This document shows, one piece after another, positions 5,150 through 64,000 of a DNA stretch of 64,000 nucleotides. Position numbers and translations under genes: made by a program. The notes below the pieces were generated by a model. The model saw only the letters and a program-made list of their open reading frames with translations, searched no databases and had not been told where the DNA came from. Position 1 is the first letter of the stretch, and each line of letters starts with the position of its first letter. Origin of the DNA: Lutjanus erythropterus. Its lineage: Eukaryota > Chordata > Actinopteri > Lutjaniformes > Lutjanidae. Location: assembly GCA_020091685.1 (NCBI GenBank), contig CM034601.1:9984419-10048418 (forward strand), written 5' to 3'.

Positions 5150-5795
5150 TAAATGTTCAAATCAAATACGGATCCGGAGACACGCCTCTTCTGGTGGCCC
5201 ACCACTGGACCTGACTTCAGAAAAAAAAAAAGAACTGTAATTGATGGCGAGCTGCCATCCAGACGAGGTCTTTTTCAGAGGCATTCCTGTTTATTTCAGC
5301 AAGGAAATGTCAAGACACATTCTGCAGGTGTTACAGCAGTGTGGCTTCATAGTAGAAGAGTTCAAGAGTTTGGATACTTGACTGCTCTGCCTGCAGTCCA
5401 GACGTGTCTCCCACTGAAAAGGTGCGGTGCATTATGAAGCGCACAATACGACAACAGAGACCCTGGACTGTTTGAGAACTCAAGTCATATATCACGCAAG
5501 AACGAGAAAGAATTTCACTTTCAAAACTTCAACAATTGGTGTCCACAGTTTCCAAATGATTACTGGGTGTTAAAATAAAAGGTATCACAGTGGTAAACAT
5601 GATCTTGTCCCAACTTTTCTGGAACATGTTGCAGGCACCAAATTCAGAATGTATATACAAATAATAATAAAGTTACTCAAGTTGAACATAAATATCTTGT
5701 CTTTGTATTGTATTCAGTTGAATATATTGCATTCTGTTCTTATTTACATTTTACAGAACATCCCCTCTTTTACACCATTGGGGTTGTACATAAAT
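5150..5795 (+). mobile_element. Tc1/mariner-like transposase remnant and 3' end
   Basis: The frame starting at 5153 contains FQQGNVKTHSAGVTAVWL followed by HSRRV. This resembles the second catalytic-Asp block of Tc1/mariner transposases (FQQDN.KPH type) with the Asp changed to Gly. The frame then shifts, but the DNA still reads as the usual C-terminal part (near 5400-5560). The distal end carries the teleost element tail with CTTGTCCCAACTTTTCTGGA, finishing near TTGGGGTTGTA. Only the C-terminal half is present, so it cannot be active. Confidence 0.65.
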
Positions 5796-6544
5796 TCCCA
5801 GCTTTCTGCTGATGATTTTCTGCTGATGTCATGTCATGTCACTCTGTAAAACATTCAACAACCCACATGTACAAACAATATTTTAAAAGATGATTTTGAT
5901 GAGATTTATGATCCACTCCCATGACCGGTTCACTCTTCTTTTACGGTCCACGTTTGACTGAGAAATTAAGAAAAACATTCTGCAGACTTTTTTTCTTCCC
6001 AAATGTTGTTCCCCCTCAGCTGTATTTGATGGCGCCGTTAAAAATTGAACAAAAGCTGAAACGCTTATTCACAGATTGCTGTCTGCAGTCGCCCTCAGAC
6101 CGCACTCAAACCCCAGCGGCCCACAGACCAATGAGGAGCGGTCTTTAACGGCTCACGTGTCGGCAGCGTTTGGCTGAAACCTCACATCTCCAAGACTCTG
6201 GCACAGAAGCCTTCATCTGAAGATCTGCTGCATACTTTGTTTTCATCTCTCCAGCTGTTTTTCCCTGTTTGAAGTTTGTATCCATGTGAGAAATACTTTA
6301 GAAATTCTCATTACTTATAGTTTGTTCAATGCTGGTATTGTCATTGGGTTTATTACGGTGATAGGACGGTGTTTTTACAATGCATTTACTCAAATGACCT
6401 GATCTCTATGAGTAGTTTTGGTGGCTAAACTTGAACAAACTGAAAAAAATTTAAAATGTGTGGACATGACATGTAAAATGTCCTTAAAATGGTCATACTA
6501 TTTAAAAGCCATCCCATGAGGTCACATCGCTCAGAGCTCTGCAC
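5796..6544. other. Non-coding, no supported feature
   Basis: No exon, RNA gene or complete repeat could be supported. The open frame at 5921-6148 has no recognisable protein features. Confidence 0.35.
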
Positions 6545-7423
6545 CAGTGTTGCCAACTTGGCATCTCTGTTGCCAGATTTAGGGACTTTTCAAACCCTCT
6601 TGGTGACTTTATTTGCAAAAAGCAACTATCGAAAAATTTAGCGGTTTATTCCTCTCTTGTGCCATCCTGACAGGCAGTTCAGTTTGTGCTGAGAAGGGAA
6701 CCCCAGACCCGTGTAAAATCTTGCGAGAGTGACCAACTAACCCAAAATATGATATTGCTGGAGCGGAGAGGTTCCCTTACAGACACAACGAAGGAGGACG
6801 CTGCTCGTTTGCTGCTGGAGAGGGAGTTCAGTTTTGATGAGTTTCTATGGCTGTGTTGATTCTAGCTCTGAGTTTTTCTCAGGGCTGAAACTTTTCTTTT
6901 GCTCTATTAAAATCTTGTGGCTTGTAAAGATGTTTATAGTCTGTTTATCATGTCATTACCTTCTCTGGCACTTTCTGTCCAGATCTCTGGATTAGGTTGT
7001 TCCTGCATGGAGTCATCAGAGTGCCATTAAAAAAAAAAAAAAGAAGAAATCTGTAGAAGAATAAGAAAATAAATGTGGAAATTAAATTATTTTTATCCAG
7101 TAAATATTTAAATAGTTTTAACTTGTAAATATTTTAAAAGCTCATTTGATCTTCTCCCTTCCTTTGAAGATTTTTAAAACCTTTTTTACTTCAAATATGT
7201 TGTCCCTGTTGTGAGTTTGTGATTATTTAGCCAGACTTCTCTACCTTTTACATGGCTTAAGGTTATGTCTTCCATTTTTGCTGTAACAGACACAAGCTGC
7301 ATGCAAACACTTGCATGACGACATAATCAATATGCAAATTATCATCTGACATCATTTGGCAACTTTAAGCGACTTTAGGAGCCAGTGCTACCTACTTTCA
7401 TCAGAAAATAGGTGGCAACACTG
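6545..7423. mobile_element. hAT-like non-autonomous element with CAGTGTTGCCA TIRs
   Basis: The left end CAGTGTTGCCAAC and the right end TGGCAACACTG are 11-bp perfect inverted repeats bounding 879 bp. Flanking 8-mers (CTCTGCAC and GTCCACAC) agree at five of eight positions, consistent with a decayed hAT-type target duplication. The inside is AT-rich and lacks a long open frame. Confidence 0.6.
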
Positions 7424-35449: not shown

Positions 35450-36501
35450 CCTGTGTCCACATAGCTTTTTTATTTCTGAGCGCCAGCGTCTTTTTTCAGT
35501 TGTTCCGAATGAGGTGAGAGCATCTGCAGCCACATGCAGCTGCTTAGAAAATGCACAGCACCCAGCCTTTTTTCCCCTCTGGTGCGACTCCTTTTTTGTG
35601 CAGCCACACTGAACATTTCAAATTGGGCCATCCCTTCCAATCCACCAGTCTGGAAATGTTTGATTTGGGAACCCACAAACATGCAGTCCCCAGTGTGGTG
35701 GTGCACCATCTCGCTGGAAAATGATGCACATGATCCCACACCACATATTCACCTTTGAACTATCTTGGTGAAGTTCCCTAGTCACATGGGGGTGTTCTGA
35801 TCCCCAGATTCTCACATTGCGTGTGTCCAGTTTCCCTGAAACATGAAAGGTGACCTCATCACTAAAACAAACTCGGGTGAGGAACGTTGCATCCTCAGAA
35901 ATTCTTTCCAGCATGTTAACTGCAAACTCTTTTCGTCTTGGTTTATCATTTGGCTCAAGTGCCTGTAAGAGTTTCACTTTGTAAGCATACAATCGCAAGT
36001 TCTTGTGTAGGACTTTGTGCACGGTTGAACGTGGTAGCTGTAACTGTCTGGCAGCAGTACGGATGGACATTGTAGGAGAATGATCAAAGGCTCATCTTAC
36101 ACGATCCATGTTTTCCTCAGATGTTCTTGGTCGTCCATTCCTCCCTTTATCCAACACTGTCCCCGTCTCCATAAATTTCTTGTGCCATACACAAATTGAC
36201 GGACGGGACGGTGAATGTCTTCCATACTTAATCCTGTAGTTTCGCTAAGACTGCATACCTGATTTTGTTTCAGTAAACCACCATACACATTGTGCCTTTT
36301 CTTGAGGAGTAGCCTTTTTTTTTAGGAGTTTATTTAACAGAACCTATTTCATCAACAGGGTACCTGAAATGCACAAATGCAATGTGATTAAAAACTCTGA
36401 TAACCACCGAGTACACAGAACAAATCTGATTAACATATCTCATCAATCGCTTTTGTAATAATTTTTTTAAATTGTAAAGAGACTTTGTGGACACCCTGTA
36501 T
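35450..36501 (-). pseudogene. Tc1/mariner-superfamily transposon, broken and internally deleted
   Basis: On the minus strand the right end reads TATACAGGGTGTCCACAAAG, a terminal-repeat-like end next to a TA. Inside it, a helix-turn-helix-type region (about 36288-36097) is separated by a stop and a frame change from a long frame (36070-35618). That frame carries STVHKVLHKN, a catalytic-block match FSDEVTFHVSGKL and FQRDGAPPH. Between MWCGIMC and the FQRDGAPPH block, roughly 45 residues expected in the family are missing. The C-terminal catalytic part is also lost. The left end merges into sequence with GCGCCAGCGTCTTTTTT that looks like another element. It is not functional. Confidence 0.85.
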
Positions 36502-41446: not shown

Positions 41447-42399
41447 CTGTGACAGAGCTGAAAGAGTCAAGAGGCCCGAAAGATTCTGCAGTGAGCCGTT
41501 CAATCCCATTTTAGTGACGACAGTCTGCAGCACAGATCATCTGAAAGAACAGAAAATGTAGGTCAGTAGACTGGAATGATAAGAAAACTTGTCTAAAAAG
41601 ATGGATGTGGGTAAAAACATTTAAAACTGTGCGAAAAACTCTGTTGAATGAGGCCTAATCTATGAAAAGAGGTTTAGATCATGGTAGTTTGAGTAGTTGT
41701 CATTCATTACTTCCCCTTTGCTCAACATTTTGCAAAAATCACTATTGATGCACTGATTGTCAGCAAAATATTTCATCATTGTTTTTAAAGGTGCAGCCAG
41801 AGTTCATCTTACAATTTTCTGTTTGAAATTTTAAAGGTCATTCCCCCACATGGATGCATGAATACACTCTGTCATAAACCCACTCTTCATAAAAATGAAC
41901 CACCAGAACAACAGCACACAAATAATCAAGGTGACAATGTCAGTTCAGTATAAATCAGTGTATTGACGGGAAAATGAAAAAACACATTTAGGCAGAGAGA
42001 CAGAAGAGAAAAGAGAAAGTCATTTTCAATCAAGTCCAAAATAAATTCCCTGAAACTCTTCAGAGTTCAACATAAAAACAACTTTTCAGGTCTTCAGCAA
42101 TAAACAGCAAAAAGAACTCAGTTTGTTCAGTTCTGTATCTGAAAAGTTGACCCGAGTAAACCCTCTTCACCGAAACAAATCAAAATAGGATCTGTGGGAA
42201 AGTTTAAGCGGTTTAGTTTAGTAAAGAGTAAAAATAGTAAACCAACTCGCCAACAAACTTAATTAGACATCTTTGGACTGGTGTCAGTTGTTTGGTCCAT
42301 GATGAAACAGAAAATCAAACACCAAAAGTTTGTGAAAGAAGAAAATAAGCGGGAAAAAGGGGGAAATGAAGACCTGGCGTTCACCAACTCACCTGCCAT
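41447..42399 (-). CDS. Putative 5' exons of an unidentified minus-strand transcript
   Basis: Reading the minus strand, exon 1 ends CTTCATGGCAG at 42393 before GTGAGTTGG. Exon 2 runs from 41540 to 41447, preceded by GTTCTTTCAG and followed by GTAGGC, all good splice consensus. The first ATG (42399-42397) joined to exon 2 gives only 15 codons before TGA. A second ATG in exon 2 in good context (AAAATGGGA, start near 41509) opens a frame of 21 codons that reaches the donor in phase 0. This could be a coding gene with an upstream ORF or a non-coding RNA. No further exon was found and the product is not recognised. Confidence 0.4.
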
Positions 42400-42565
42400 G
42401 AAGGGAGATTATTGATCGGCTGGTTCCGGAGATATTCGGTCTTTTCGGAGACTCACGTAGCGGTTTTCCCGCGCCGTCTTTCAAACACCATCACTTCCCT
42501 TTTACCTCCTATATAAAGGAAGAGACGTGGGCCGCCTACTCGAAAAAACGGTCAGTGATTGGTTG
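42400..42565 (-). promoter_or_regulatory. CCAAT/E2F/CHR-like promoter of the 42.4-kb transcript
   Basis: On the minus strand in order: CCAAT (42562-42558), a TATA-like CCTTTATATAGG (about 42521-42510), TTTGAA (42485-42480, CHR-like), then GGCGCGGGAAAA (42475-42464, an E2F-type site). The donor of exon 1 follows at 42393. This combination is typical of cell-cycle-regulated promoters. Regulation is inferred from motifs only. The TATA-like sequence is nearly symmetrical, so plus-strand use cannot be excluded. Confidence 0.5.
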
Positions 42566-43610
42566 TCAGGATGGACAGGTGACAGGGGTGTGGCCTTCAT
42601 TCATTAAAATGTATTAATTTACCCTGGGACAGTACATATACTGTACTTTTACTACTGATATTTTAAGCTCTTTATACTTTTGTACTTAAACAGGATTGTA
42701 GGATTGTCTTTGACCTTGTAATTATTCTTATGAAAAGATATATGTCAGTAACAGAGTCCTAAAACAGTATTTATTGTCAGTGCAATGAGAATATACTAGC
42801 AATACCTATTTTTATTTTTTCTTAAGTTCTAAAATTGAGTGTCTGTGCCTTAAAGGCACAAAATAAGGTTTCATAAATACAGAACAGTAAAAAAAAGTGC
42901 ATTATTCCCTCTGTTTTTACTGCGTTAAATGCTGATTTTACAAATATTCTCATGCCATCTTCTGACAGCACACCGAAATAAGGAAAAGAAAATCTGAAAT
43001 ACAGTGAAGATTAAAGACACTTTAATCCGTCCACAACAGAACACAATTACAACAACAAACAATGAGGACATCCAAGGCAAGAAAATGTATTTTCATCCAC
43101 ATGCATGTTTACATCACATTGAATATACAAATCTAATTTGCCAAATGACCAGCATTCAGCTGCTTATTTTTAACAGGAACTTCCATCTCTTCACATAATG
43201 CAAACATCAACAAAACAAGGAAACATCAACTTTTAACCTCGCCACGCGGGGCCAATCATAAAGCTTCTACTGAGCTGCCTTTGATCCACATCTGTAGATA
43301 AAGATTTAATTGCACAATATACTGCTCTCAGTACAGTTGTTGTTCTGCCCACGATTTTCATTTTAAGAACAGATCCGTTTATACGAGTGGTTCTTGCATG
43401 TGGCCCATTGCATTTTATGTCTGTATCTACCCATGAACCATCACAAACAGTAGGCATAATAATATGTTAATCCCACCACAAGAGTGACTTTGTTCTCTGC
43501 AAACATGTCCATATATGAGTATCAGCAAAAATGAGCTGCAAAATATCAGTATATTGGATATCTGCAAAAATCCAAAATTGTGCATCCCTAGCTGTGTGGT
43601 GGTAAGGTAT
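42566..43610. other. Intergenic, AT-rich
   Basis: Contains AAGTACT-type repeat remnants (42600-42700) and a transposon-end-like piece at about 43500-43592 finishing GTGCATCCCTAG. No exon is seen. Confidence 0.4.
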
Positions 43611-43615
43611 CAATA

Positions 43616-43621
43616 TTTATT
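43616..43621 (-). terminator. Candidate polyadenylation signal of the five-repeat gene
   Basis: AATAAA on the minus strand, about 370 bp downstream of the stop codon at 43989. It is the first clear hexamer noticed there. Use is inferred. Confidence 0.4.
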
Positions 43622-43624
43622 ATT

Positions 43625-43950
43625 AAACTACAATGATTAGTTGATTAAATGATAGCTGATCCAAAGACAACCCATGACTTTTTTGATAATCGGAAAGTTG
43701 TTTAATTTATCAAGCAAAAATGTCAAACTCCAGTCTCTTAAATGTGAGTATTTGCTGCTATTCTCTGACGTGTGATAGGTAACTGTATTTTTAGGTCTTA
43801 GACTGCTGGTTGGACAAATCAAGTGATCTGAAGACATCAACTTGGGTTTTGATTGTGAAAAATTGCAATTTTGAACCATGTTTTTCTGGTATTTTCCAGA
43901 CCACAATTCTTTCACTATTTGAGAAAATAATCTCTATAGTCCCTAATCTG
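43625..43950 (-). repeat. Teleost dispersed repeat in the 3' flank of the five-repeat gene
   Basis: Contains ATTAGTTGATTAAATGATAG, GATAATCGGAAAGTTGTTTA and AAGCAAAAATGTCAAACTCC, the order found in a very common fish repeat with ATTAATCG-type ends. It lies between the stop codon and the candidate AATAAA, so it would form most of the 3' UTR. Confidence 0.65.
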
Positions 43951-43988
43951 AACACTGATTTTCTGAAATGTAAACAGGAGCTACGACT

Positions 43989-46900
43989 CTATTCAACCTC
44001 GACTTCTATGTCAACAGGCCTCAGCTCTCGGACAAACATGATGTCCGAGTTATCAGTGAGGTCCAGCTCGCCAAAGCCATCGTCTGGCTCCTCTTTGCAG
44101 ACGATCTGTGAGGACTCTGAGATCTCGAAGGGCAACTCAAACACTTTGTTCAGATAATCTCCCTTTCTGTTGTGTTTTCCTGCTATGGCTATCACCTGGG
44201 ATGCAAGTGACCAAGCGAACTCCACCTTCCGATGTTTCTGAGAGCTCAGGTCGAAGTTGTACTCCAGGATCTCGTACAGAGAGGGAACGTACCGCTTGCA
44301 GTTTTGTTCTACATACTGGTGCATCTCACAGAGGACTCCTCTTGTCAGCACTCCCAAATCGAGTTTTGTTTTGGTTTCTGATTTAGACCTGATGTCCAGG
44401 TCCAATCCTATTTCTTTGCAGATGTGATAGTGGTTGACCATTTTCACCTGTTGCACATCTTCACTGAAAGCCTCCGTTTCTTCTTCCAGTCCTATGTTTT
44501 CTGTATCCACATCCTTTGGGCGTTTGCGAGTCTGTGGTTGTCGAATAACCTGTGGCTTACCGTCCACTGGGACAACCAAGTTTAACCACATCCTTAGCTT
44601 TGGTGATGTATGCTGCTTTCTCATCAAGCTCCTCTGTGTTGTGTACCACCTCTGGATCACCTGTGCAGCCGTGGTCACGCCACTTTGAAGCTCAAGATCG
44701 AAATTGTGCTCCAGGATGTCATTAACTTCCTCGCGGACTTCTCCACACAGCTCCCTGACAAAGCTGAGTATTTCGAGCACAGCGCCCGTGGTCAGGACAG
44801 TCAAATCAAGCTTTTGGCTTGCCGGAAGTGGTTCTGTCGACCAAAGGTTGAGACCTAACTTGTTACAGAACGGGTGCGACTCTGTGTCTGCCTGCTGGCT
44901 TGAAGCTGATTCTGATGAATCCTGCTTTGTATGCTGCTCGGTGTCAGCGTCCTCTGCAGTTTGAAAATCACTGGTCACGTCAACCATGTTGTAAACATCA
45001 GGGAACTTAAAGGGACTGTTGAGAAACTCCATCTTCTGTCTAGCAGGGTGGTTCTGAAGAATCTTCTCTTTTGTGATGATGTAAAAAAGAAAATTGCGCT
45101 GGTGCAGCTCATCTTGGAGGACAAGGGTAAAGTTCTTATCAAGGATGTCCAATAAGAAACTACGTAAACTCTTTGACATTGCAGTTGCAAATCTATAAAT
45201 TTCAAACAACACAAAGTTGGTGAGTAGTTGTAGATCCAACCTCTGTTTCTTGCCTGAGCCAACATTAAAGTCTAAACCTATCCCTCTGCAGCGGGCAAAC
45301 AAGTCGTTCACTCTGCTAGACTTTAGGATTTGTTTTGAGCGAGGAGCACGTCTTGTCCACAGCTTCTCTTTCAGTGTTTTTACATTTACGTCCTCATCTT
45401 CAACTTCAGAAAACAGATCAGAGACTTCTAGAGCTGTGATCTTTGAAGGAAGGTTTAGTAAAGCAGAGCTGTGGCCATCAGTCTCTGAGGAAACTGAGGA
45501 AACAAAATCTTCCTCCTTTATATCCAGAGACAGTGCCAACTCTGTACCTGCTGCTGTTCCTGACGAACAGCTTTCAAACTTCGTTTTTTCTGGTCCGTCC
45601 TCAGTCTCAGACAGCATTTCTGACTCAAAATCAACTGGACACATGTACGACAGGTCACTATCTTGCCAACACTCTTTGTCACTCGGCGTCCTTCTCTTAC
45701 TGTCCCTTGTTAGTCTTTCCAGTTCTCGATCAACTGGATCAGGGTTTGTTCTCTTTTTACGATTCTGTTGCAGTTTCTTGATGTGGAGTTTAAAAGGCTC
45801 CTTTCGGAGAGCGTGCTTCTCCTCAGCTGTTAGGCAGGCATTTTTTCGCTCCATCACCTTGGACATGTTCATATGGAATTGCACTGTATCCAACTCATAG
45901 CCAAAGTTTTGCTTGACAATGCCATGAACTATCCCAGTTAATGTTCCACAAAGCACTCTGGAAAAGTCAAGCAGCTCCATCATCACACCGTTAGTTACCA
46001 GATTTGGGTCTAGTTTCTGTATGGGTGCATCATCTGGTCGAACAGTTAGGGAAACACCAAGTCCTTTACAGAAAGGGTAAGATTTGGCCGTTAGTTTAAA
46101 TCTGACCCCTCCTCGTTTTTTTATAACTGGCACACTGCTCAGAGCTCTCTTACTCTCCGTCTTCTGATTTTCTGAAGACTGGCAGCTCCTGCTGCCATCA
46201 GTGAGGAGCGAAGTATCCACGATGTTGTTCCTTTTATGGTAGTAGGTTCCTGACTGCTTTGCTCCAATGAACGTCATTATAGCCTTTCGGTCTGGTAGTG
46301 GAAATGTTTCTGTCCATCTACGAGGTTTCACCTTGAGTTGCTCTTTCAGTGCCTTTATTCTATAGTGAACTTTTGATGCATATTCATACAATTGCCTGTC
46401 ATCATCATCGTCCACATCAAGGTCGAAGTTGAAATGTAGTATTTCAAACAAGAAATATTTCTCTGACCTGCTCACTGTTTTGGCAAAGGCACTAAGTTCC
46501 GTCATCACACCGTTTGTCAGCAGACAGAGATCTAACTTTTCCTTCCGTTCCAATGCCGCGTTGAACTCCAGACCAATTTCAACTGACTCTGGGAATGGAA
46601 CTGCACATTTCTGATTTCTAACTCCCTGGTGGATGCGGCGCTGCCAGATGTAATATTTAATGCCATCCATGTTAACATCCACACCCCAAAACTGACAGAA
46701 GCTGCTGAGTCCTCAGAACATGCTTCTTTGTATCCTGATCGATGGCTCAGGAACTGGATCCAAAGAGACTCCTCATCAACTTCTTTGCAGAGGAAACCCA
46801 GCACAGTCTTTTATAGAAGCTGCAGACATCATTCGCTGTTACTGCATCACTGAGATTATCTTCTCAGTCTGTGAGTAAAGACAGAACAGAGTTTGACTTA

Positions 46901-49297
46901 GTTAACTGAGCAGCAGATTTTTCAAACCTAAAACCTTTAAACATTGGAGCTGTGGGATCACAGAAAGATGATGGGATATGTCGGTAACAAACTGCCACAC
47001 TACGATTATTGTAGCTAAAATATGACGGTAAATGGGAAGATCACAATATTCACTGAACCTCACTGAACAATAGTAAAATTACCTTACACCATGTTTGTCA
47101 ATCAATTAGGAAAGAGACCTAGGTTACAGAACAGAAATAACTTTCTACCTCCTAATAACTCCTCTGTTGGCTAAGTTCCCTCATCAAAAATTAGTATTAG
47201 TAATTTATTACTAATAAATTAATTTTAGATTTTTATTTTATATCAATAAAAAACAGTTGCAGCTTCAGTGTTTCAGGTAACAGATTTAAAGGCCTAGTCT
47301 AAACCTTTGAATCCACCCACTCCACTGAGCTGATTAATATGGAAAATAATTGCAATTCAGTCTGATATCAGGTTAATGAAACCTTTTGTTTAACAAGATA
47401 CAGAACCTCTGAATTATGAGATTTTTGTCTTAATGTCCTTTGCCTAAATCCAAGACAGAATGCAAGATATTTTGCTAAATTATGTGCAATTATTATTTGA
47501 ATCAAACAATATTTGATTAAAGACTAAATAAACAAGGCTACGGTATAGTACGATAGTACAGCCCTCCTACAGGACCATGCTGTTTGATATTCCCACCCCT
47601 GAGCAGTGACCGGTAAATGCAAGAGGCCCAGTTAAATTTACAGTCACTGTACCTACCTTTCCACAGAGCAAAGTTATATTGCTATAATAAAAACACCCAG
47701 CATTTTTAATAACCCCACAGCATAATTTTAAACTATAGAGGCTTTCTTTTCAAAAACAAGTTTGGAGAGCCGAGTGTTTTTGAAAACCCTGACACAAGCC
47801 CTGGATCTTCAAGCATTTTGGGCCTGAATATTTTACTGCATTATAGGTAGAGAAGTAGAAAGCTCCATTAACAAGCTCATACACAATACAGGCCTGATGT
47901 GATGCTGTCATTTATTACTTTGAAGCATATAAAATATGGAAAATGATGGGAAAATCAAGGTTTGATGGACCACATTTGCATCATGAACAGTACACAGCCT
48001 TCACCACTAGATGTCAGTCAAATATAGTCAGTGTGCTAACTGAGCAGTGAAGGCTTACAAGACAACAGGTTAAGGATTAATACACTGAGATTATGTCTTA
48101 ATTGATTATGCCTAATTTACTGCAGCAAACATGGTTTGGACTATTCAGACAACCACTATGACATTACTATGATACTATTTCTGACATATATTTATTTTCG
48201 TTCACAGATCACATAGCTGAACATTTAAAACAATCCCTTATGTTTGTCCTACTTTTTGAAAAAAGATAACCTGGGCCCTCTGTGGATATAAATGGCTCAT
48301 TCTAAGGTGACAAAAACACAATGATTCATATTTAAAATTCCAATAAATACCCCTAAATCTTACACACTGGACCTTCAACTTGTGCTGTTATTAGGAAAGA
48401 GGATTCTTTGTCTTGTGTGATTAAACTAATTTTACCTCTAGCTAAACACTACTTCAATATAGAGCTGGGCAATTCTATCAATATTATATCAATATTGTGA
48501 TATAAGATTTTTGAGTTCATTATATTGTGATATGGTGTAAGTGTTGTCTTACATGTCATTTTCTGAACTTACCAGACTGCTGTAGCTGGTTTATTATTTG
48601 CCTTTAACTACACTTTCATTATATCAATACTACTGATAATTATTTATCAAAAATTTAAAAACTATAACTAACTACTATATTGAGAAATATATCGAGGTAT
48701 TTGGTTTGAAAATATTGTGACATGTATTTTTGCGCATATCACCCATATGAGATAATTAACTAGACTATCTCATAATTTTCGGTATGCTAGCCTAGAGAAA
48801 ATGTGTATATTTTAATATATATCGCAGCAATGTGGTTATGTATTGATATTAATTTCATCATTTGATACATGTACTTCCACCTCCCTGGCATTGTGTCATG
48901 GTGTAAACTTAAAATTATTAATAGCGTTAAATATGTCATAAATAAAGTTCCGAGTCACGTTAGCTAAATAAATAATTAAATAAATAAACAAATAACATAT
49001 GGCGTTTACCAGTGGGACCTGACCGCACCAAAATGGCTGCTCCATCAAGCATCAATCCTGTTAATGTGCACTTGAGGTTGTAGTGCGTGACGAAGCTCCA
49101 CGTTTATGTAACGAAGCTACGAAGCTTGAAAAACACCAAAAACGGCGTTATTGCTAACATTAGCCTCTCAATGGAAAGCTAACGTCAGGCTGACAAATGC
49201 GTTTAACACAGAGGGGCTAAACACGAGCACTCACCAGAGACCGGAGCACAGACCGGTCACCCCGGCGGTCAAAGAGGTTACTGAAGTACTTGGTCAT
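43989..49297 (-). CDS. Unknown protein with five tandem copies of a novel ~100-aa module
   Basis: The model has two exons. Exon 1 is 49297-49235 (21 codons, MTKYFSNLFDRRGDRSVLRS + Leu, donor GTGAGT). Exon 2 is 46691-43989, after acceptor TTCTGTCAG, with both junctions in phase 0, giving about 921 aa. The large exon is certain as an open frame (898 codons to the TAG at 43989). The exon 1 join is inference, since the frame closes at TGA 46715-46713 and its first internal ATG is at 46670. The protein has five diverged modules at about residues 50-155, 225-324, 484-587, 626-729 and 775-879. All share an ungapped core: Leu-Asp, then Thr five residues after the Asp, Glu at Thr+6, Phe/Tyr at +10, Ile-Leu/Val at +25/+26 and Asn-Phe at +29/+30. 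Basic NLS-like runs (QQNRKKR, TRKRPKD), an IKEE sumoylation-type site and a C-terminal acidic/hydrophobic SDIMFV suggest a nuclear protein. No family is recognised and no enzyme motif is seen. Confidence 0.75.
46692..49234 (-). other. Intron of the five-repeat gene (with possible alternative exon)
   Basis: Mostly AT-rich, with a repeat at 48461-48747 and a terminal MITE fragment near 48345-48375. The last 180 bp (46870-46692) is less AT-rich and follows a strong acceptor (TTCTGTCTTTACTCACAG at 46871). It may be an alternative 5'-UTR exon, in which case translation would start at the ATG at 46670. It also holds an open frame (46804 leftward) that is out of phase with the main exon. Confidence 0.5.
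48461..48747 (+). repeat. Teleost repeat with GCTGGGCAAT start
   Basis: Starts AGAGCTGGGCAATTCTATCA and continues with TGATATAAG...GATATGG...AAGTGTTGTCTTACATGTC and TTATTTGCCTTTAACTACAC. It ends near GCATATCACCCA, whose complement echoes the start. It is AT-rich, non-coding and located in the intron of the five-repeat gene. Confidence 0.65.
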
Positions 49298-49420
49298 GAA
49301 GTCAAAGACCACAACACCTCATGAAATGCTGCAGCGCAGCAACACGTCACTTGACACATGTGCACTTCCTCGTTACGCCGCGTTCGGGGACGCGTCGGAA
49401 ATTCCGTGTTTACACATTAC
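49235..49420 (-). promoter_or_regulatory. CpG-containing promoter region of the five-repeat gene
   Basis: Local cluster of CpGs in otherwise AT-rich DNA (GACGCGTCC, GAACGCGGCG, CCCGGCGG). On the minus strand it contains GAGGAAGTG (ETS-like) and GTGACGTG, and no TATA box. A short upstream ATG (ATGAGGTGTTGTGGTCTTTGA) precedes the proposed start codon. The transcription start is not defined by sequence. Confidence 0.5.
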
Positions 49421-49548
49421 CATTAACAGACAGTTATCCGATCTGCCCAGAAAACATTGGGAAGCTACCTTTAAGAAATGTATTACGTTCGTTGCGTTTT
49501 TTAATATGTTATAATATATAAATATCGATCACAGAGGGAAATAAATAC

Positions 49549-49605
49549 TGTTTCTGCTCGGTTTCGAACCGGAGACCGTTAGGCGAACGTGATAGCTACA
49601 GAAAC
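49549..49605 (-). pseudogene. tRNA-Val remnant (deleted D arm and anticodon stem)
   Basis: On the minus strand the ends GTTTCTG and CAGAAAC form a perfect 7-bp acceptor stem followed by A. The T arm has a perfect box B (GGTTCGAAACC), and TATCACGTTCGCCTAAC matches the anticodon-loop region of eukaryotic tRNA-Val(AAC). At 57 nt it is about 16 nt short. About 8 nt of the D arm, with box A, and about 9 nt of the 3' anticodon stem are missing. No T4 terminator follows immediately. It is probably a decayed tRNA gene or pseudogene. Confidence 0.75.
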
Positions 49606-49620
49606 TGCATAATTGTGTGA

Positions 49621-52289
49621 TGTTCAGGAACATACAGGAAACTGAAACTTCGAAGTGTTTAAACGCACAGTGTAACACGGGGTCATTCTGAGCACAAACG
49701 AGGACAAAAAAATGGTTAAAGAAGGAGGAGAAGTGAAAAACACTGGCATACTTTGCATGTTAAAATGTGCAGTGAGCAGGTCATTATTATGAAATAAATC
49801 CTGATGATGCACTGTGGTTTTATTTCACAGAAGTGACCTGCTCGCTGTACATTATCCTGCTTGTTACGTGGGTGTGTACCAAAGAAATCAATGATTTCAC
49901 ACAGTCTATGATCAGACCTGTGTCCACAGCAACGGTCTGTTCTTCATAAAACAGATATAACAGACCTTGGAATTGTAGTAGTAAGACACTTTAATACACA
50001 TGTTCAGATGTACTATATGCAATCTTCAGACAGTGTGTAGAGAGCATAAAGCCCCAATATGTTGAGTAAAATCACTTGTGTCACCTTTAGTAACAGCCAT
50101 AAACCTTTTTAAATTTAATACTAACATTTTATGATGGTTAACTCACTTTTCATTGAACTATTTTTTTAAGTCTGAGTCAAATTCACGTGTTGTTTCAAGC
50201 ATTATATGACAGTACAACCTCAACTTGCCCCCTTCTCTCCCGATAAAAAAACGAGTGCGGTCTGTTTAAACTGATTAAAAACATCACTGACGCAGCAGAG
50301 AAACCTTGTGGGGTGTTATTACATTGAAATCAATGTAAATAAAATCAGCGTCTGTGTATCCATGCTCCTGTAGTTAAAACCATGTTTTTTGGAGCATTTG
50401 GATGTGAGCTGGTTTGATATTAACTTTCCAGTTTTCACAAGGAGTGTGCTGTGTCTAGACAGAGACTCTGGACAGTTTGAATGGTTTTGTAAACAGTTTG
50501 GATGAAATCCATTTAGTGAAATAATGTAGTGTACTGTGCTGCCTTTCACTTTCCTCACCCACATTTATCCTGCTGGTCAGGCACTGAACCACTGACAAGC
50601 TCGCTTCTCAAATCATCAGGCCACTTTAGGCTTCAACGCTGTGACCACTGCAGATGCACTACTGATGCTGGCGAATGGACCAAAGGAAATCCCAGATGAT
50701 GCGATGAATATTCCTGAGAGGAGCATCACAAACATTGGCACATCTGGGGGAAGACCCTGCTACTAGACCCTGAGACTGACTGAGCCTGGGTGATGACAGA
50801 AGGAATGTACACGCCTCACTGGACAACTTTGCAAAAAGCATCAAAATCCCGCTTCAAGCTGATCTCGTGTGGCTGCAAGAGAGGTTGCAGAGACTGCTGC
50901 AGGTGCACGAAGGCTGCACTTTGACACGCAGGCCTTGGTTTCTGTGTGGGAGAATGTGCAACCTGACTGTAAGATTAGTTATTCAAACATGCCAGAACAC
51001 GGTCTGTGGTAAGTTGTTTTGCCATGAGGAACAAATAACACACTCAAGATGTGTTTGTAAAATGATTAAAATAGTTTACAGCAATCATACAGGTCTGTTC
51101 ACTGAACATTGTTACATGACCTTTGTTAATAAACTGTGCTCAGTACTGTTACAGTTTAATCCAATTATCACAATAACATGTAGAGACAATGTCACCATTT
51201 GGTTGCATTTTCATTTAGTATTACCTCAAGTCACAACAAAAATCTTCACAGCATTTTTAATAGGACTTCTGTTGCTGTTATTTGTTTTGTTTGTTTGCTC
51301 TTCTTCTACACGTGTGATAATAAAGCGTGTATCAGAACAAATACTGTTCACTTTGATTTGACTTTGACTTTAATGGGACAGAGTAGTCTGGACAGCACAG
51401 TTCACATCACAGGGAATAATCCACCTATAAAACAGAAGGTTTACACCACCATCTAGTGGTCAAAGAATGTTGTAGTCTGGAAATACACAACCTACACTCA
51501 CCAGCCACTTCATTAAGTACACCTCGCTAGTACCAGGATGGACCCACTTTTGCCTTCAGAACTGCCTTAATTCTGCATGGCATAGATTCAACAAGTTGCT
51601 GGTCCATATTGACAGCATCACACAGTTGCTGCAGATTTGTCGGCTACACATCCATGATGTGAATCTCTCTTTCTGCCACATCCCAAAGGTGCTCTACTGG
51701 ATTGAGATCTGGTGACTGTGGAGGCCATTGAGAGTACAGTGAACTCACTGCCACCAGTTTGAGATGATTGGAGTTTCATGTTTTCACCAGATTCTGACCC
51801 TACCATCTTAATGTTGCAGCAGAAATCGAGACCCATCAGACCTGGCAACATTACCACAAGATTACCGTACTCTTAAAGAACTGAAAACAGAAGGGGTTTT
51901 TGGTTGAACAAACACTTTATTACAATTTCCCAAAATATTATGTCCTATCAGACATGAAAATTGTTTTAAAAAATACTGTTAAGTATTTTTAATACCAGCT
52001 AAGAGTGAGCAGGATAATTTGGATGAATTGGCCTTTATGATTTGCTAGTTAAAGAGTGACACCAAATGATCAGTACACTGAATGTGCCGTTAACTGGATT
52101 TACTTGATTTTAAATCTCACCCCAGACACATGGTGGAGTGTGTACCGTCTTAAGCGCACTCTCTTTCTTTTATTTCCCAAGTTAGGATTTTCGTAAATTT
52201 CCTAAAATGTTGTTTTGCTTGCCAAGGTGAGAGAAGTAGTGTTGGTTGCTAGGTAACAGACATAAAAAAAAGTGATGCTGGATTGAGTG
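49621..52289. other. Intergenic region between hpgd and the five-repeat gene
   Basis: No exon is supported. The frames at 50867-51361 and 49624-49812 show nothing recognisable. A transposon-end fragment lies at 51493-51850, and the rest appears unique or decayed repeat. Confidence 0.4.
51493..51850 (+). mobile_element. Teleost DNA-transposon 5' fragment
   Basis: Starts ACTCACCAGCCACTTCATTA / AGTACACCT and continues with TTGCCTTCAGAACTGCCTTA, ATTCAACAAGTTGCTGGTCC, GTTGCTGCAGATTTGTCGGC and TGGATTGAGATCTGGTGACT. This order is that of a very common fish element whose terminus reads CACTTTATTAGGTACACCT. A short end of the same type occurs near 55965-55990. The superfamily is left open and no transposase is intact. 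Confidence 0.65.
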
Positions 52290-52493: not shown

Positions 52494-55400
52494 CTAAATG
52501 TATGAAGGAAAAGTCACAAATGTTTTTCCCTTTGGAGTCACCAGGAGGGCCTGTCCGTTCTTTGTCTCATCTGTCACCAGCTCGAGGATAGACTCCGCTA
52601 CGTCAGATGTACTGAAATAAAAAGACAAAATGACTTCAACGATTATGCAGGTACATGTTGTCATACATGACCAGGATAATGTACTTCCATTTGTTTTTTT
52701 AAAATAATTTGCGAGGGACAGACTCACGTTATTATCCCGAGCTGGTCTACTAATTGTTGGGTTGCACCAGCCAGGTTGGAATATTGTCCCAGTTTGGTTG
52801 GAATGGCGGAGAAGAGGTCAGTTTGGACAAAACCTGGACAAAGTGCGTTAAACCGTATACCGTAGCCTAAGGCTGCAGAGGCACTCTGATAAAAGACACA
52901 CACAAACATGCAATTAAGCTTCAACTGTTGAGAGGCAAAATGTATAATACAAGCACTAAAAGGCTGCGTCTGTCTGTCTCAATCCTGGATTATAAGACTT
53001 TTATTGTACCAAACAGCTTGTCCCGTGCCAACACCAGGACTAGCACAATTAAGCTAGCTTGTGTTCCAGAACAGGTCAGATCATGTCTTTTAAAGTCATT
53101 CAGAGTCAGTTAGAAACCAGTCAGTAAGTAAGAAATGCTTTTTCTCCACATGAAAAACAATTTAATTCATACCTGGTTTCAATATTTGATATATGGCAAT
53201 GCATTGCTGCACAACCAATAGCAAAGACTCTCGCCTTGGCAGGCAATGGTCACCCACTGTGTGTTTGTTTGACAGGGCTTTATATGGAAATAACAGACCT
53301 TAGAATGCTGTAATTGACCAATCAGAATAAAGTATTATATCAACAAAGCTATGTAATAAAATGTTATAACCTATTGTTACAACACAATGTTCTTAATGTA
53401 TTATCATTTTATATCAACATAAATAAATAGTGTATTAAATTTCTTGTTACAACATGATAAGTTAATATGTCATAATAAGGTGAAAAAAATATTTTTTTCA
53501 GGTTATAACATGATACTAATCTATTTCCCCTTTTCTGGAGTGGAAGTGACACACTGCTGTACTGCTGCAAATTCTTGTACACAGATGTTTCCTTCATCTT
53601 TCTGGACTTCATCGTAAGAAAACGGTCCTTACCGCCATGGCTCGAGTGAAGCCGATCACTCCGTGTTTGCTGGCTGTGTAGACAGGACAGCTCGGCAGTG
53701 GACCAAGACCTAAGGTGTAGGATGTGGAATAAATTTGTCACATTTGAGTTGTCAAAATCCTGACTTAACAGGGATACACAAACTTCCTGTTCACCACTTC
53801 CTATTCTGGTGGCATTTGTTGCATTTCCGTTCAGTGAGACCGTGAGATAGGCCTTAAAATCTTACTGTTGGTTTGTGGAAGGGGTGGCAGATTGTAAGCA
53901 CTTTCCTTCTATGATTTATTACAGTAAATATATTATAGATTTCTCTTTTAAGAAACAAAAACATTTTAAACCTATTTGTAAATCTTAAACACAGAAGAGG
54001 AAACATTTTAGGTCAGACTTAGAAAATATTTTTTTTTCTCTCGCTGGCCTCTCAGGGCTTCTGCAAAACGCTGCTGTCTTTTGTTGGTAAATAAACAAAC
54101 ACATCGTGGGCTTTACCTGCCATGGATGCTGTGTTGATGATAACCCCTCCTTGACCTCCATTCAACTTGCTCATGTGCTCCACAGCCAGGTAGGCCACCC
54201 TGATAGCCCCCAACTACAACACAGAACAGTTAAGAGTCGACAGCAGAGATCTCTTTTTCTGCTGCAGGCCGAGTATCAAATGTTGTGACATTAAACAGGG
54301 GAAGCAGAATGTCAAAACTGCCAAATTTAACTGTTGCCAGATCATTTCTTCACACTCTAACTGCGGAAAAGAGTGAAATATAAATCATTGCGGTGGGGCA
54401 ATAATTCACGAAAAGCTGCAAATATAACATGTGGTGGTGTGATTTCTCTTGTGGGAGTGGGACATAATCTCATGCAGATGTACAATGCAGGTTTTGTTGC
54501 TTCTTACGAGGTTTATGGAGACCGTTTTCTCCCACAGATTCTCATTCAGGATGCCAGCATTGTTGCACAGAATGTCGATTGCGCCGAATTTTTCTGTGGT
54601 TTTCTGAAAGGCAGCTTGAGAGGAGAAAAAAACAGACAGGACAACCAAGTTGACCACTTCCTATTTAAATATATGACTGTTGCTAAACCTTTGTTAACAT
54701 GTCATCATTTACTCTTCAGCTGCAACAATTTCTCAGTTAATCAATTACTCGATGGCTAGACATTCAATCTGCAGCAGTTTTTACAATCCATAAATGTTAT
54801 AGACCAAATAATTGATGGAGGTTATAAACAGTACGTTTATTGATGAAATGAAATGCGAATGACTGCATAAGACTGTTAGCCAGTTCCTCCAGGATTTGTG
54901 ATCAATTAATATCAGTTCAGTTCAAGTCATTGAAGGCTAATAGTTAATATCTTTCACAATAATCGACTACATGTTTTTATCAAAAGTTTTTTGTCATATG
55001 CATTATAAGTGTAGTCAGCAAAAAGCTTGTGCTTTGGCAGCGTTCTGCTGATACACAGGATGCCGTGTAACATGAAACATACAATAAAATAAATAAATGT
55101 ACAAAACAATCTCATCATATGTGTCTCTGGCTGACATCACTCTCTGTCAGAGGCTGTAACGGGCTCAGTTTTAAAGAAATAATTGAAGACATCATTTGAA
55201 ACTAAATGACTGAAAGCATCCATTTGTGCCAACCATGTCATGCAGGCGTATCGCTCCACATTTAGGCTAAATTTTGGTGATTCAAAGATTGGCGTGACCA
55301 TTTTCACAGGGGTCCCTTGACTTCTCACCTCAAGATATCTGAAAATGGGTTCTATGGGTACCCAAGAGTCTCCCCTTCACAGACATGCCCGCTTTTATGC

Positions 55401-58400
55401 ACATCCCCTGTAGTTTGGGGTAAAAACCATGCAGTTTTGTGCATGCAGTAGAAATGTGTATTTTCACCTGTTCTGAAATGGTACGTTCAAATATTTCTGC
55501 ATACTGGGGTCCCTAAACAGCACTAGAATATCATAAATCGGTTATGACTACAAAGCGGAGACTCTTTTGGATTTAATGAGCCTAATGGTGAGTGGTTCTC
55601 CCTGTTAACCATCTCAGCAAATTATTTACACTATCACTATGATAAATGATAAATCTAACTGAACATGGCGTTCGATTGGCTTAATTCAAGACGCACTGTA
55701 CTTACCAAAAAAATATGTATATATAGATTTGTTAAAGTAAATAATTGAAAGTCCAGCCGTTTTCTTCCTTTCTTTGTTTGTGTTAGTTAATGTGTGTGTG
55801 TGTTTTACCTTTGATCTGCTCCTCCGATTCAACATTACAGCTCAGGAACAGAGTTCTCTCCCGTCCGTACTGTTTTTCGAGGGTTTCCATTAAATTCTTT
55901 CCTGCAGTTTCATTCACATCCAGCACGGCTACCTGTCCAGCAGACGGACAATCAGACATACACTCAGTTGCCAGTTTATTAGGTACAACAGCCTTTATGA
56001 AGTTCAGTTTTTCTTTTTTTTAAACTGTGTAACAGAGCTGCTGATACACTTCATTTATTACTTTTTTCTTTTGTGTCTTTATCTGTGCTTTTTTTTTTTT
56101 TTTACCTTGTGCTGTTGCAAGACCTTAATTCACCGAAGATCAACAAAGGCTTATCTTATCTTATATTTAAACAAATAGTTTGTCTTTTTTTAAGTGGGGT
56201 TATATGAGGTACTTATCCATAGTCAGTCTATTACCTACAGTAGATGGAGGTCAGCATGTTCCAAGATAAGCAATGAACTGCTGTGGACAGGGTCAGCAGT
56301 AAAACGGGCCCATCTAAAAAAAATCAATATTGCTTTAACTTTCTGATATATTGAGAATATTTTCATCACTATACCTTGGTGTCAGACAGCCTTATTTGAC
56401 AGGACACTGCCTTTTCATAAGCCAAATATTGCTTTCTCCAAAACAACCAGACTAGACTAACAACATCAGTAATTTTACCTTTCAGAAAATGGGAGTCGCC
56501 GGTCTACTGCTGCCTCAACTGGTTAGTTAGTTTGTGTTGTGTGACTGCAGTGTTTTAAAGGGTCAGTTCAGATATGCTAAAATCACACATTAACAACATT
56601 AACTAACTAACCAAGTGCAGCAGCGGCACATCAGCACCTCCTGAATTCTGTGAGGTAAAATTATTGAGCCTCATGCAAGAACATTTTCGTATTCTTGTGT
56701 TAAATTTCTTACTTTTTTTTCGTATGAAGGGCTCGTACGAACACGCCACGTCAGATTCAACAAACGCTCCTAACTTCAGAAAACTGTGTAAATTATCCAC
56801 CTGTGCGTATTTGAGTGCACGTGCATGAGACTTGTACTTACTGGAGGGTCGTACTGTCACTGAAATAAAGAGGAAATGTCTCAATATGGAAATGACTTAA
56901 GGAAAAAAAACACTCGCCACAGTAAGGGGCAATCGATGACTGCAGCAGGAGGAGAGGGTTAAGAGGAGGACAGAATAAGTTAGGATGTTCGCCTGGACAG
57001 AGACTTCATAAACCTGCATGTGCAGATATACAGCCAATACACCTGACAGCAGGTACTAATAGATCATTGAATGAAGGATGAGAGGCTTTATTTGTAAATT
57101 TACAATTATATTATAATTTGAAACATTCAAAAAGGATAATGTTGACATAATCATGAAGTGTAATTTATTTGTTCAAACTCAAAATGTCTTCAAACTAATG
57201 AAATATACAGTCATTATTGAAAAACTTGGGTTTGTATACCAGCAGACTGACTGCATGACTCTACGACAGGTCAGAACCACTCGTAAACTGTGTTCGTATC
57301 TGAAAGAAAACTCAAAATATGACTCTTAAATCACTCGTAGATGCCAGTTCTTGCATGAGGCCCACTGTTTTCGTCAGTGGAGTCTGGTTGGTTTGGAGAG
57401 AGCAGCATGTGGTTTATATAATGGCTGTCTGACAGCAAAGTAAAGCAGTAAAAATATTCAAAATATAAAGCACACTTAAACTAATATTGATGTTTTCAGA
57501 TGCCTAAAATATGTCTTGCTGTTGACCTTGTTCACTGCAGTACACTGCTTAGCTTCCTACACCAGTACTCCTGCTGCTGCTTCTCCAAACTGGGGGCGTC
57601 TACTGTAGGTAATACACTCACTGTGTATAAGTACCTCATACTGCCCCACTTCTGAACCATGCCTTCAAATATAAGATAAGATAAGATAAGCTTTTATCGA
57701 TCGGCAGAGGGTGAATTCAGGACAGGAATAAGCACACGTACCTCATATAAACCCACTTTAAAAAAAAAACATAATCTACACGTATTCATATAAATGGGGT
57801 GGGCAAAATATTAGAAAAACCTCACAAAACTTTTAGAAAACACATTTAAGTCAATACTATTCATATACTCAAAGAAAGAGCTGAGAGCACCTCCAGCACA
57901 ATGGGCAAGAGCAGGGAAAAGATTCGCATACAAGACCGGATACAACGAGCAGGCTGCCTTTTGCCTTCTGTTTTTTTAATCAGGGAGTGCTGACATTTGG
58001 GCGGCATACAAAAAAACCCTCACGACAAAAGGAAATTTTGCTCCTTACCCTCGTAGAGCAAATTCCTTAAGTACGTACCCCACCAAAGTGTTACTATAAT
58101 CACAAGAGATAAATTACAAAAGAATGGGGACAAAATCTGTGCAGCAGAGGTTGAGATGTCCAAACATTTCATCTGTGATAGGGGTCACACCAAAAACTCA
58201 ATTCCCATTATGCAATACAACTCATTACATGCCCCACTGCTTCAAAAACGCAAATTCGACTGTGTTTGGAGCTCAAATTAACATGGTTATTTTTCCATAA
58301 TACTTACATGTGCATGTTGTTGTGTATCATTTATTTTTTATAAAGTACTACTTCTTGTGAAAAGTAAACTAAACCTCAGGTGTAAAGTTGGATGAGTGTC

Positions 58401-59780
58401 CTAAAACCCATGAAGTGAAATATAAGGTTTCAAAATTACCATAGAGATTTTGGACAGAAATATTTATTAATATTTCTGTTACCTTTGACTGTTTTTTTTT
58501 TTTTTTAATTATGACATTTTGTGTTTTTTTCTACAATTATTGTCTTATTTCTTGAATTTTACAATATGGTACATCTTATTGAGTGACATCAAAGCATAGC
58601 AGAGGTTGTGCTAATTTGGGAGGATACAAAACACTTGGTGACACTATAAAAAATGGCTTCACAACTTGCAAAAAAAAAAAAAAAAAAGATCAACGATGGT
58701 ATGTCCCAACAGTGGCCTATAGGGGACTCCAGCAGTGCTCTACAACTAGTTTCCATTCAGCCTGAAATAAACAGTGAACCTGTTAAATGGAAACCTGCCT
58801 GAGATTAGTAATGGACGTGTAATGATTTACCGGTGTGAAAGTGAGCACTTGTGGAAATAAATCGGTCACAACACTCAAAGAAATCAGCAAATTAGACATT
58901 GGTTTATTGTTGTTGCCAAGAATATGCGTCTGAACAAGTTCTCCCAGTGGCTTTAAATGTAATGTTCTTTTTTTTATTATTATTTTTTTAATTATTATTA
59001 ATTATTTTTATTGAAAGACTCTACAGTCTAAATCAGCTCATTTAAAAATGCTCTACAAGTGATTTTCTGTATCTGTCATGAATACGACACACTGCAGAAC
59101 CTAGATTAGCAAAAAAAACAATAATAATAATTTAAAAAATCTTGAAACAAACTGATTTACAAGTTGAAATGTTTCTGCAACATTACTTTTTTTAAAAATA
59201 TAATAATTCAGATTTAAAGTACCAGGACCAAAATGACTTGATATGAGACAGGGTCTCTTCACTTAACAATGCTGAGTTTTAGAATTTGAAAAATAAGATA
59301 AATTAAAAAAAAAAAAAAGAAAGAAAGAAAGAAAGAAACAGAAAAGAAAAAAACCCACTACACTTTACTAGGTCAAATAAATGTAGGCTAGTGGAGTAAA
59401 ATTTGGTGACGTGGGTTTATTAATCAGCAAACATGAAAATACAAGGTGCAAGGTTCATTTATTTATAATTTTACAACACTGGGTTTTGTAACGACATCAT
59501 AGATGTAGGCATTTGCTGCTCAAAAAAAAAAAAAAAAAAAGATTGAAGGAGCTCCAATGTTAATTTAAGTACTGTGCGTTATCTACACCTTCTCTGCCAC
59601 TGTTTGCCATATGTTTAATTGTATGTTGCAATGATTCGTAATGAACCAGTAGCAGAATATCACAGTAATAACTAAGAAAAAGTTTACCTTGGCTCCGTTC
59701 TGCAGGAGCATCTCCGCCATTGCCTTTCCTATCCCCATCGCTCCTCCGGTCACTACCGCGGTTTTATTAGTCAACGCCAT
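52494..59780 (-). CDS. hpgd: 15-hydroxyprostaglandin dehydrogenase [NAD+] (or close paralogue)
   Basis: Seven coding exons on the minus strand: 59780-59688, 55932-55809, 54614-54508, 54213-54117, 53709-53633, 52885-52728, 52611-52494. All introns are GT-AG and the phases are consistent, giving 257 aa (human HPGD is 266). It is a cytosolic short-chain dehydrogenase that oxidises the 15-OH of prostaglandins and related lipids with NAD+, inactivating them. Visible motifs are the Rossmann TGGAMGIG near residues 11-18, Asp36 after the second strand (NAD preference), NNAG near 91-94, Ser138 in NTASMAG, and Tyr151/Lys155 in YTASKHG, the same numbering as I recall for human [12 protein letters not shown] follows in exon 6. 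The start has good Kozak context (GCAGAAATGG). Residue 148 is Cys where I recall Gln in human, and the C-terminal tail is shorter and diverged, so a paralogue with shifted substrate range is possible. Confidence 0.92.
55933..59687 (-). other. hpgd intron 1 with repeats
   Basis: A 3.75-kb intron. It contains a (TAAGA)n-type tail at about 57672-57690 and an oppositely oriented (TTATC)n tail at about 56147-56163, both next to TTCACC...-type sequence, suggesting two 3' ends of the same retroelement in inverted orientation. A (GAAA)n tract lies near 59318-59340, with several poly(A) and poly(T) tracts. At 57903 an ATG opens [19 protein letters not shown], possibly a decayed transposase start. No additional exon is recognised. 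Confidence 0.45.
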
Positions 59781-62011: not shown

Positions 62012-63924
62012 ATGGAGTCCGTAGAGGGTAACGAGGAGAAGACAGCAGGTTCTCTGTCTGCGGCTCAGAGGAGAGCAGAGATCCGGAGGAGAAAACTGCT
62101 CATGAATTCAGAGGACAGGATGAAGAGAATCGTGGGCTACGCCAAAAACAACGAGTCTGAAAACAGCGGTATGATATGATAACTGATCCAGTTTACAATG
62201 AGTCTTTTATATTGAAAACATACTGTCAAGTCACTGTCATTAATACAGCTCAATACCACTAATTTGCTTCAAGTGGCTTTCACAGTATGACGAGATTACA
62301 ACACCCTCCATCATTAAATCCTCATTTTGGATGAGCAAATACAATTTTAACGGCGATAAAAATGCAAGAAACCTCAGAGAGTGCAAGAGGAGGGGAGCCT
62401 ATCCTAGGATGGACGCACAGAATAAGCCAACAGTGAAATTAAAATACGGACGATCAGGATGACACAATTGTAGGCAAAGTGTAAAAATACATCGATGAGC
62501 CACATTATGAAAAGCACTGACAAGTCAAGTGAACAATGGCATCTGCTAAAGGATATATATGATAAGTGAGGCAACAAGTGAACAGTCAGCAGTCCTTCAA
62601 GTTGATGTGTTGGGAGAAGGAAAAATGAGCAAACGTAAGGTGGTTAGTACAAGGAAAGGTTCCATACCGCTTTTCATGTACAATACTGACATCAAACCCA
62701 CAGTTTTGAGTTTCTGTCAATACCAGTTTCCAAGCTGTCAATAACACAACGATCGAGGCGTTGGTGATTTTAATTTTTGCCTCAAATGTGACCCTAAAAT
62801 CACCACAGCGTTTTGAATAAATATTGACATGTTAAATAAAAGCGGTTTAATTTTGCACCAACCCTACTGTGTGCTTTGGATTGTTTTTGAAAGAGACTTG
62901 CATGTTGTTGTTTTTTACTAAGATTATATGAAACAGAGAAAAGCAGACAATGGTCACATTTGAGAGATTTGCACTAGAGATTTTGTCATTTTTTGTCCTT
63001 TATAAATAAATTTAAGTTAACAATTAAAGGTCCAGTGAGTGTAAGATTTACAGGGATTTATAGGCTGTATAGGGTAGGAATGGAATATAATATAAAGAGG
63101 TATGATATCAGTGATGTAAAATGATCTGAAAATAAGATTTTATTGTATTTTCATGACCTTAGAGCGAGCCTTTCCTATCTACAGAGGGCACAGGTCTTCT
63201 TCCATGGAAGCCACCATATTTCACTGCCACATTTCTGCAGTATCTCAGAACAAACAAATCAAACACTGGCTCTGGATATGACCTTTTGCATTTTGCAGCC
63301 ACTGTAGATTCTCCGAACTCTCTGAAGGGGAGAGTGAGATGACTTGCAATTTGCAGTTTGCCAACTGACCTCTAGATGTCACTAAATGCACACACTGGTT
63401 CTTTATTAGATGTTATTGTTTCTAGTTATATCTGATGTCTCTGATGTTGTCTCACATCTGCAGCCGGAGCGTCCCGGCGTCCCACAGAACCCCACTTTCA
63501 CCTCGATCTGGACAGGACAGAGCCATGGTCGTCCTCATCATCCCCGAGACCGTCTCCCTTCCTGCCAGAGGCATCCGGGCTCGGCAGTCGCTCCCTCAGT
63601 GCCACTCCGGAGAGGAGGGGCTCGCCCCTGCTGGGCTTCAGTGAGCCACTCGGAGGGTCCCTGGAGGACGACAGCGGAGGGATCCGACAGAGGCCGAGGG
63701 GGGAGCGGGTATCGGATGACCCCAGCAGCTCTCCGCGTCGGGGCCTCCAGAAGTACCTGTCCCGTTTTGACGATGCCATGAAGCTGCGGGGTCAGCTGGC
63801 CAATGAGAAGCCGGCCCAGGACGGAGGGTCCGACTCAGAGGAGTTTGATCCCTTCAGAATCTTCAGGCTCATCGGCAGCGTCCTCCTCGCTATTTTCGTC
63901 AGGATTTTTGTCTGCAAATATCTG
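62012..63924 (+). CDS. camlg: Calcium signal-modulating cyclophilin ligand (CAML), 5' part
   Basis: Two coding exons are in the window: 62012-62168 (donor GTATGA, phase 1) and 63464-63924 (acceptor CTGCAG, donor GTGAGT, phase 0). Together they give 206 residues, and the remaining exons lie beyond the window. CAML is an ER membrane protein that, with WRB/GET1, receives tail-anchored proteins from TRC40/GET3. The N terminus has the cytosolic basic segment [20 protein letters not shown], matching the Get2-like TRC40-binding region. A long polar, Ser/Pro/Arg-rich linker follows. Then come [31 protein letters not shown] and the first transmembrane segment ([16 protein letters not shown]) at the exon end. 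Human CAMLG is about 296 aa, so roughly 90 residues with two more membrane spans should follow. The start codon has an A at -3 and G at +4. Confidence 0.93.
62169..63463 (+). other. camlg intron 1
   Basis: A 1.3-kb GT-AG intron. Its 3' part (63027-63404) is occupied by a MITE-like repeat ending about 60 bp before the splice acceptor. The rest is AT-rich with no exon signal. Confidence 0.8.
63027..63404 (+). repeat. MITE-like repeat, copy 2
   Basis: Begins GGTCCAGTGAGTGTAAGATT and ends TAGATGTCACTAAATGCACA followed by CACTGGTTCTTTA. It shares ends and internal blocks (CACTGCCACATTTCTGCAG, ACACTGGCTCTGGATA) with the copy at 14911-15325, in the same orientation. Confidence 0.75.
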
Positions 63925-64000
63925 GTGAGTCTGCTCATGTGGCTGTGATCACTGTGAGATTGGCTCAGTGCTTTTCTTACATGTCACCTGATTACAATTT
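63925..64000 (+). other. camlg intron 2, cut by window end
   Basis: Starts GTGAGTCTG. The following 76 bases hold no acceptor or coding sequence. Confidence 0.85.

Follow-up and report, generated by a model that had tools for sequence, protein, structure and literature searches.

The stretch analysed here, hereafter the window, comprises 64,000 nucleotides of the Lutjanus erythropterus genome (assembly GCA_020091685.1, contig CM034601.1, positions 9,984,419-10,048,418), and coordinates are given as positions in it. Its minus strand carries a gene, which we call the module gene, whose protein contains five copies of one domain, or module. The copies fall into three types, A, B, and C, and the layout of the protein is A-B, a long linker, and A-B-C, with linkers of 35 to 150 residues between the modules (Table 1). 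Around the ATG of the coding sequence, position −3 is an A and position +4 a G; the stop codon is at 43989-43991. The original prediction, made from the letters of the window, had put the upstream end at 46691, which is 21 bases too far. A putative splice acceptor suggests 46868 as the probable first base of the coding exon.

Table 1. Parts of the module gene, as positions in the window.
Feature	Position	Strand	Remarks
Probable 5′ untranslated region within the coding exon	46671..46868	minus	Behind splice-acceptor-like tctttactcacag; read in the sequence
Coding sequence, 893 amino acids, without intron	46670..43989	minus	Open frame from 46712, after an in-frame stop
Module 1 (type A)	46281..46604 (core 46425-46532)	minus	Signature, blastp, tree, leave-one-out profile
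Module 2 (type B)	45759..46082 (core 45903-46010)	minus	Signature, blastp, tree, leave-one-out profile
Linker between modules 2 and 3	45309..45758	minus	150 residues; net charge −9
Module 3 (type A)	44985..45308 (core 45129-45236)	minus	Signature, blastp, tree, leave-one-out profile
Module 4 (type B)	44556..44879 (core 44700-44807)	minus	Signature, blastp, tree, profile; second AlphaFold2 model
Module 5 (type C)	44109..44432 (core 44253-44360)	minus	Signature, blastp, tree, profile; first AlphaFold2 model
Acidic C-terminal tail	43992..44108	minus	Net charge −10; CKEEPDD and SDIMFV
Candidate polyadenylation signal AATAAA	43616..43621	minus	Read in the sequence

That one minus-strand open reading frame encodes five modules with an ungapped core of 36 residues had been predicted, and this is borne out. 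Taking as zero a Thr that lies at residues 52, 226, 484, 627, and 776, all five copies have, without gaps, Leu at −6, Asp at −5, Thr at 0, Glu at +6, Phe or Tyr at +10, Ile at +25, Leu or Val at +26, Asn at +29, and Phe at +30, that is, all nine positions named. Written as a regular expression, this signature matches five times in the 893-residue protein and not once in 20,000 residue shuffles. When each module was compared by blastp with the whole protein, the other four were found, so that all 20 ordered pairs matched at E 1.7e-5 or lower. Profiles built from four modules scored the omitted one at 49.1 to 73.5 bits; the top scores among shuffled modules, of which there were 2000 per module, were 7.0 to 10.0 bits. 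No tandem repeats were found in the DNA at 42000-50000, so the repetition is visible there at the level of the protein.

The conserved unit follows the pattern C...G-L...F-x-L-P over about 100 residues. The G, at −21, is present in four of the five window modules in an ungapped count, and in all ten modules of this and the second locus described below once these are aligned; the C is present in eight of the ten, and the closing F-x-L-P is common among them. Judged by the conservation of G and C and by the F-x-L-P beyond the core, the domain is thus of about 100 residues and exceeds the 36-residue core of the original prediction. Five residues do not vary across the ten modules: G, T, E, N, and F. 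A zinc-binding role for the module was considered and dropped because the Cys is absent from two of the ten; a loose expression for C2H2 spacing matches once in the protein of the second locus and not in that of the window.

The structures of modules 5 and 4 were predicted with AlphaFold2. For module 5, the best model has helices at residues 38-51, 55-66, and 73-94, with a mean predicted local distance difference test (pLDDT) score of 71.3 and a predicted template modelling (pTM) score of 0.66; for module 4, the helices are at 38-51, 55-66, and 71-93, with a pLDDT of 73.3 and a pTM of 0.69. In both models, a short strand precedes two helices joined by a short turn, after which come another short strand and the third helix. 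The module is thus predicted, with moderate confidence, to be a compact, mostly helical three-helix domain. The single bridge residues, at positions 31, 37, and 67 in both models, are the conserved L, T, and F (nine, ten, and ten of the ten modules, respectively). Since these residues coincide with the bridge positions, the conserved residues are probably structural, serving mainly to hold the fold together: the L before the first core helix, the T at the start of that helix, and the F after the second would come together in small bridge contacts. Variability peaks in the third helix, where the mean column entropy is 2.39 bits versus 1.22 for residues 31-37. The third helix and other positions of the module would have diverged while the residues holding the fold were kept.

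The queries used on the assembly, of 938 Mb, were the full-length protein, module 5 and module 3 singly, and the open reading frame found on contig C14. Among the matches listed at E ≤ 1e-3, all relatives outside the window fall at a single site on C14, at about 19.105-19.111 Mb, which makes at least two loci in total. Three single matches elsewhere (E 0.25 to 3.8) were dismissed as noise. The array on C14 is found some 2.8 kb downstream of a gene that resembles DDX1 (DEAD at E 3.2e-6, SPRY below its threshold, and the last exon read by eye). It has an open frame of 1202 codons with six modules, the first of them truncated. In the C14 stretch L008, a tandem array occupies positions 1689-7356, where a broken-frame copy lies beside the 1202-codon frame, which starts inside a B module; this copy, upstream of the open frame, has 77 to 91% DNA identity. 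Also in L008, at 3658-7266, codons of about 84-146 and about 722-846 hold a Y-x-C-P patch and a KLW/MW...QIL stretch that resemble the window linker before module 3. The likeness of these two patches to the linker is weak (E 0.046 and 0.26, respectively). By tblastn, the window protein matches C14 best over residues 433-860, that is, modules 3-4-5 in one run (E 1.1e-53), and the order A-B-C is present at both loci. In the search with the C14 frame, the first A-B pair there aligns with window modules 1-2 at E 3.0e-29 versus E 1.3e-17 for module 3; neither pairing of the A modules between the loci is rejected (p 0.33 and 0.34).

In a tree of the ten modules, which has long branches and leaves out the truncated eleventh of C14, type A consists of window modules 1 and 3 and two C14 modules (support 88/93), type B of modules 2 and 4 and two C14 modules (70/82), and type C of module 5 and one C14 module (100/98), the last being the only branch that passes the strict mark of the program. 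The type labels were equally clustered in 2 of 200 shuffles. A single clade of the five window modules is rejected (p 0.0002), so the types A, B, and C existed before the two loci split. The original prediction of an ancient pair, A and B, is supported as to age, for both types are old, and falls short in number, since module 5 represents a third type. The tree neither establishes nor rejects its grouping of modules 1, 3, and 5 against 2 and 4. The fair comparison is A plus C against B, and the best tree does contain that branch (70/82); a clade of modules 1, 3, and 5 alone is rejected (p 0.005), under a constraint that has no room for the C14 modules of type A and is hence an unfair test. The (Y/H)PFC start and the LCG noticed earlier in modules 2 and 4 are both there, and LCG occurs in all four B modules aligned from the two loci and in none of the six A or C modules. 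The rule that no insertions occur within the core holds in the five window copies and fails in the C module of C14, which has one extra residue inside it. Second codon positions are more alike than third positions in all ten module pairs compared, pairs that share modules, and this is in line with coding constraint.

We tentatively favour the reading that the product is an uncatalogued, tandem-domain, soluble protein scaffold with multiple partners, to which it would bind multivalently. The modules would be protein-binding units, and the scaffold, probably nuclear, would bind several partners simultaneously, or else a single partner that is itself repetitive. Types A, B, and C may each bind partners of their own, and this would account for their having stayed distinct at both loci. 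The linkers are charged, at +9, −9, −9, and −3 in order; with their short basic patches and one SUMO-type motif, they may act as regulatory spacers. The basic patches, of the form K[KR]-x-[KR], are at residue 716, in a linker, and at residue 474, inside module 3; the one psi-K-x-E motif, LDIKEEDF at residue 384, is in the linker between modules 2 and 3, which also has the Y-x-C-P patch weakly in common with the second locus. The CKEEPDD and SDIMFV of the C-terminal tail may likewise bear on SUMO. The highest 19-residue mean of hydrophobicity in the protein is 1.39, and there is no strongly hydrophobic stretch. In all eleven modules of both loci, the net charge of the 40-residue core is 0 to −8, which leans towards binding of protein rather than nucleic acid.

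Several observations weigh against the scaffold. The nuclear location rests on the two basic patches and the single SUMO-type motif, all of which are common by chance. The modules as wholes are not all acidic, with net charges of −3, +4, +4, −1, and 0 for modules 1 to 5, and the linker at +9 is the one that joins module 1 to module 2. Both AlphaFold2 models were made from the same five window sequences, and the weakest of the five models has a mean pLDDT of 50.9 for module 5 and 48.8 for module 4. The comparison of codon positions leans on an alignment guided by the protein. Lastly, the youngest duplicate pair of C14, with 14 amino-acid-changing versus 5 silent codon differences in 75 codons, gives no sign of constraint.

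As to classification, the main rival holds that the module belongs, at a distance, to a known domain family, its likeness to which has become too faint to detect; we consider this somewhat unlikely. Small helical domains diverge quickly, the profiles rested on ten modules only, and weak sub-threshold Pfam rows do occur. One of these rows is the N-terminal domain of XRCC4 (PF06632), which aligns with 44 residues of module 5 at 12.8 bits, about half the curated cut-off of 26.2, and is not listed for the other nine of the ten modules; its fold is not among the Foldseek or VIA matches listed, an absence that does not exclude the same fold. Pfam assigned no family to the window protein and, apart from one sub-threshold zinc-finger row, none to the C14 protein. 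That the module could be assigned to no known family had been stated before, and a structure prediction with fold comparison had been suggested; Pfam, the PDB sequences, and Foldseek, run with the models of modules 4 and 5 against PDB and with that of module 4 against predicted viral structures, yielded no credible relative, the best Foldseek PDB rows for the two models being at E 1.5 and 2.1. The module motif strings were not found in the open full-text literature, a search that covers those terms only and is no proof of an unpublished family, and Rfam at gathering scores gave nothing over the window. By uncatalogued we therefore mean unmatched by the libraries searched, not absent from all databases. 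Ankyrin-, HEAT-, and TPR-type repeat proteins likewise carry several copies of a small helical unit per chain that have diverged outside a structural core, whereas the modules here are of about 100 residues, are spaced by linkers of 35 to 150 residues, and are of three types; these families gave no match in the general Pfam scans, in which they were not searched for by name.

The main functional rival takes the module for a DNA-binding unit resembling a winged helix, and the protein for a transcription regulator with several such domains. The order of predicted strands and helices around the core does resemble a helix-turn-helix with a wing, short basic patches are present, and modules 2 and 3, each at +4, and the linker at +9 would suit such a role. 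The acidic to neutral cores argue the other way, as does the lack of a telling fold among the Foldseek and VIA matches listed. Moreover, no helix-turn-helix row appears in Pfam at E ≤ 1 for any of the ten modules, with the proviso that the HMMER filters drop most matches above 0.1. On balance, we regard a DNA-binding regulator as distinctly unlikely.

That the gene was domesticated from part of a mobile element or virus is very unlikely. In favour of this origin are the single coding exon, the want of an assigned cellular family, and, on C14, the tandem arrangement with its decayed copies. Against it stand the two loci among the matches listed at E ≤ 1e-3 (counts being lower bounds), with no dispersed copies among these, the lack of any element enzyme domain among the Pfam results for the two proteins, the absence of inverted repeats of at least 20 bases at 42500-48500, and the failure to find a relative in viral contigs and prokaryote genomes with six short peptide patterns for each of the two proteins (a search that detects close relatives only), in phages by tblastn with the window protein, or, below E 2.0, among predicted viral structures with the module 4 model.

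The window contains other genes. What we take to be an HPGD-like short-chain dehydrogenase gene (52730-59780, minus) lies upstream of the module gene and shares its strand; six exon-like tblastn matches, from 59780 down to 52730, were obtained with a human HPGD sequence. Beyond it is CAMLG (62012-63948, plus), recognised by Get2_like at E 1.2e-58 for the exon at 63445-63945, with the first exon read by eye. An open reading frame at 35618-36091 (minus) is presumably a fragment of a Tc1/mariner-type transposase; its Pfam rows are all below the cut-offs (HTH_IclR, 0.0015; HTH_SB, 0.024).

Returning to the module as part of a scaffold, a wider proposal, which we hold to be rather unlikely, is that it represents a vertebrate domain family with its own fold and three ancient types, ordered A-B-C at two loci, which would form a multi-partner assembly platform in fishes. 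A repeated vertebrate domain that is unmatched by any Pfam model merits attention. With the limits of the domain, the three types, the invariant residues, and a second locus defined, a profile can be built for vertebrate proteomes, and, given these limits, a single module can be expressed for structural work.
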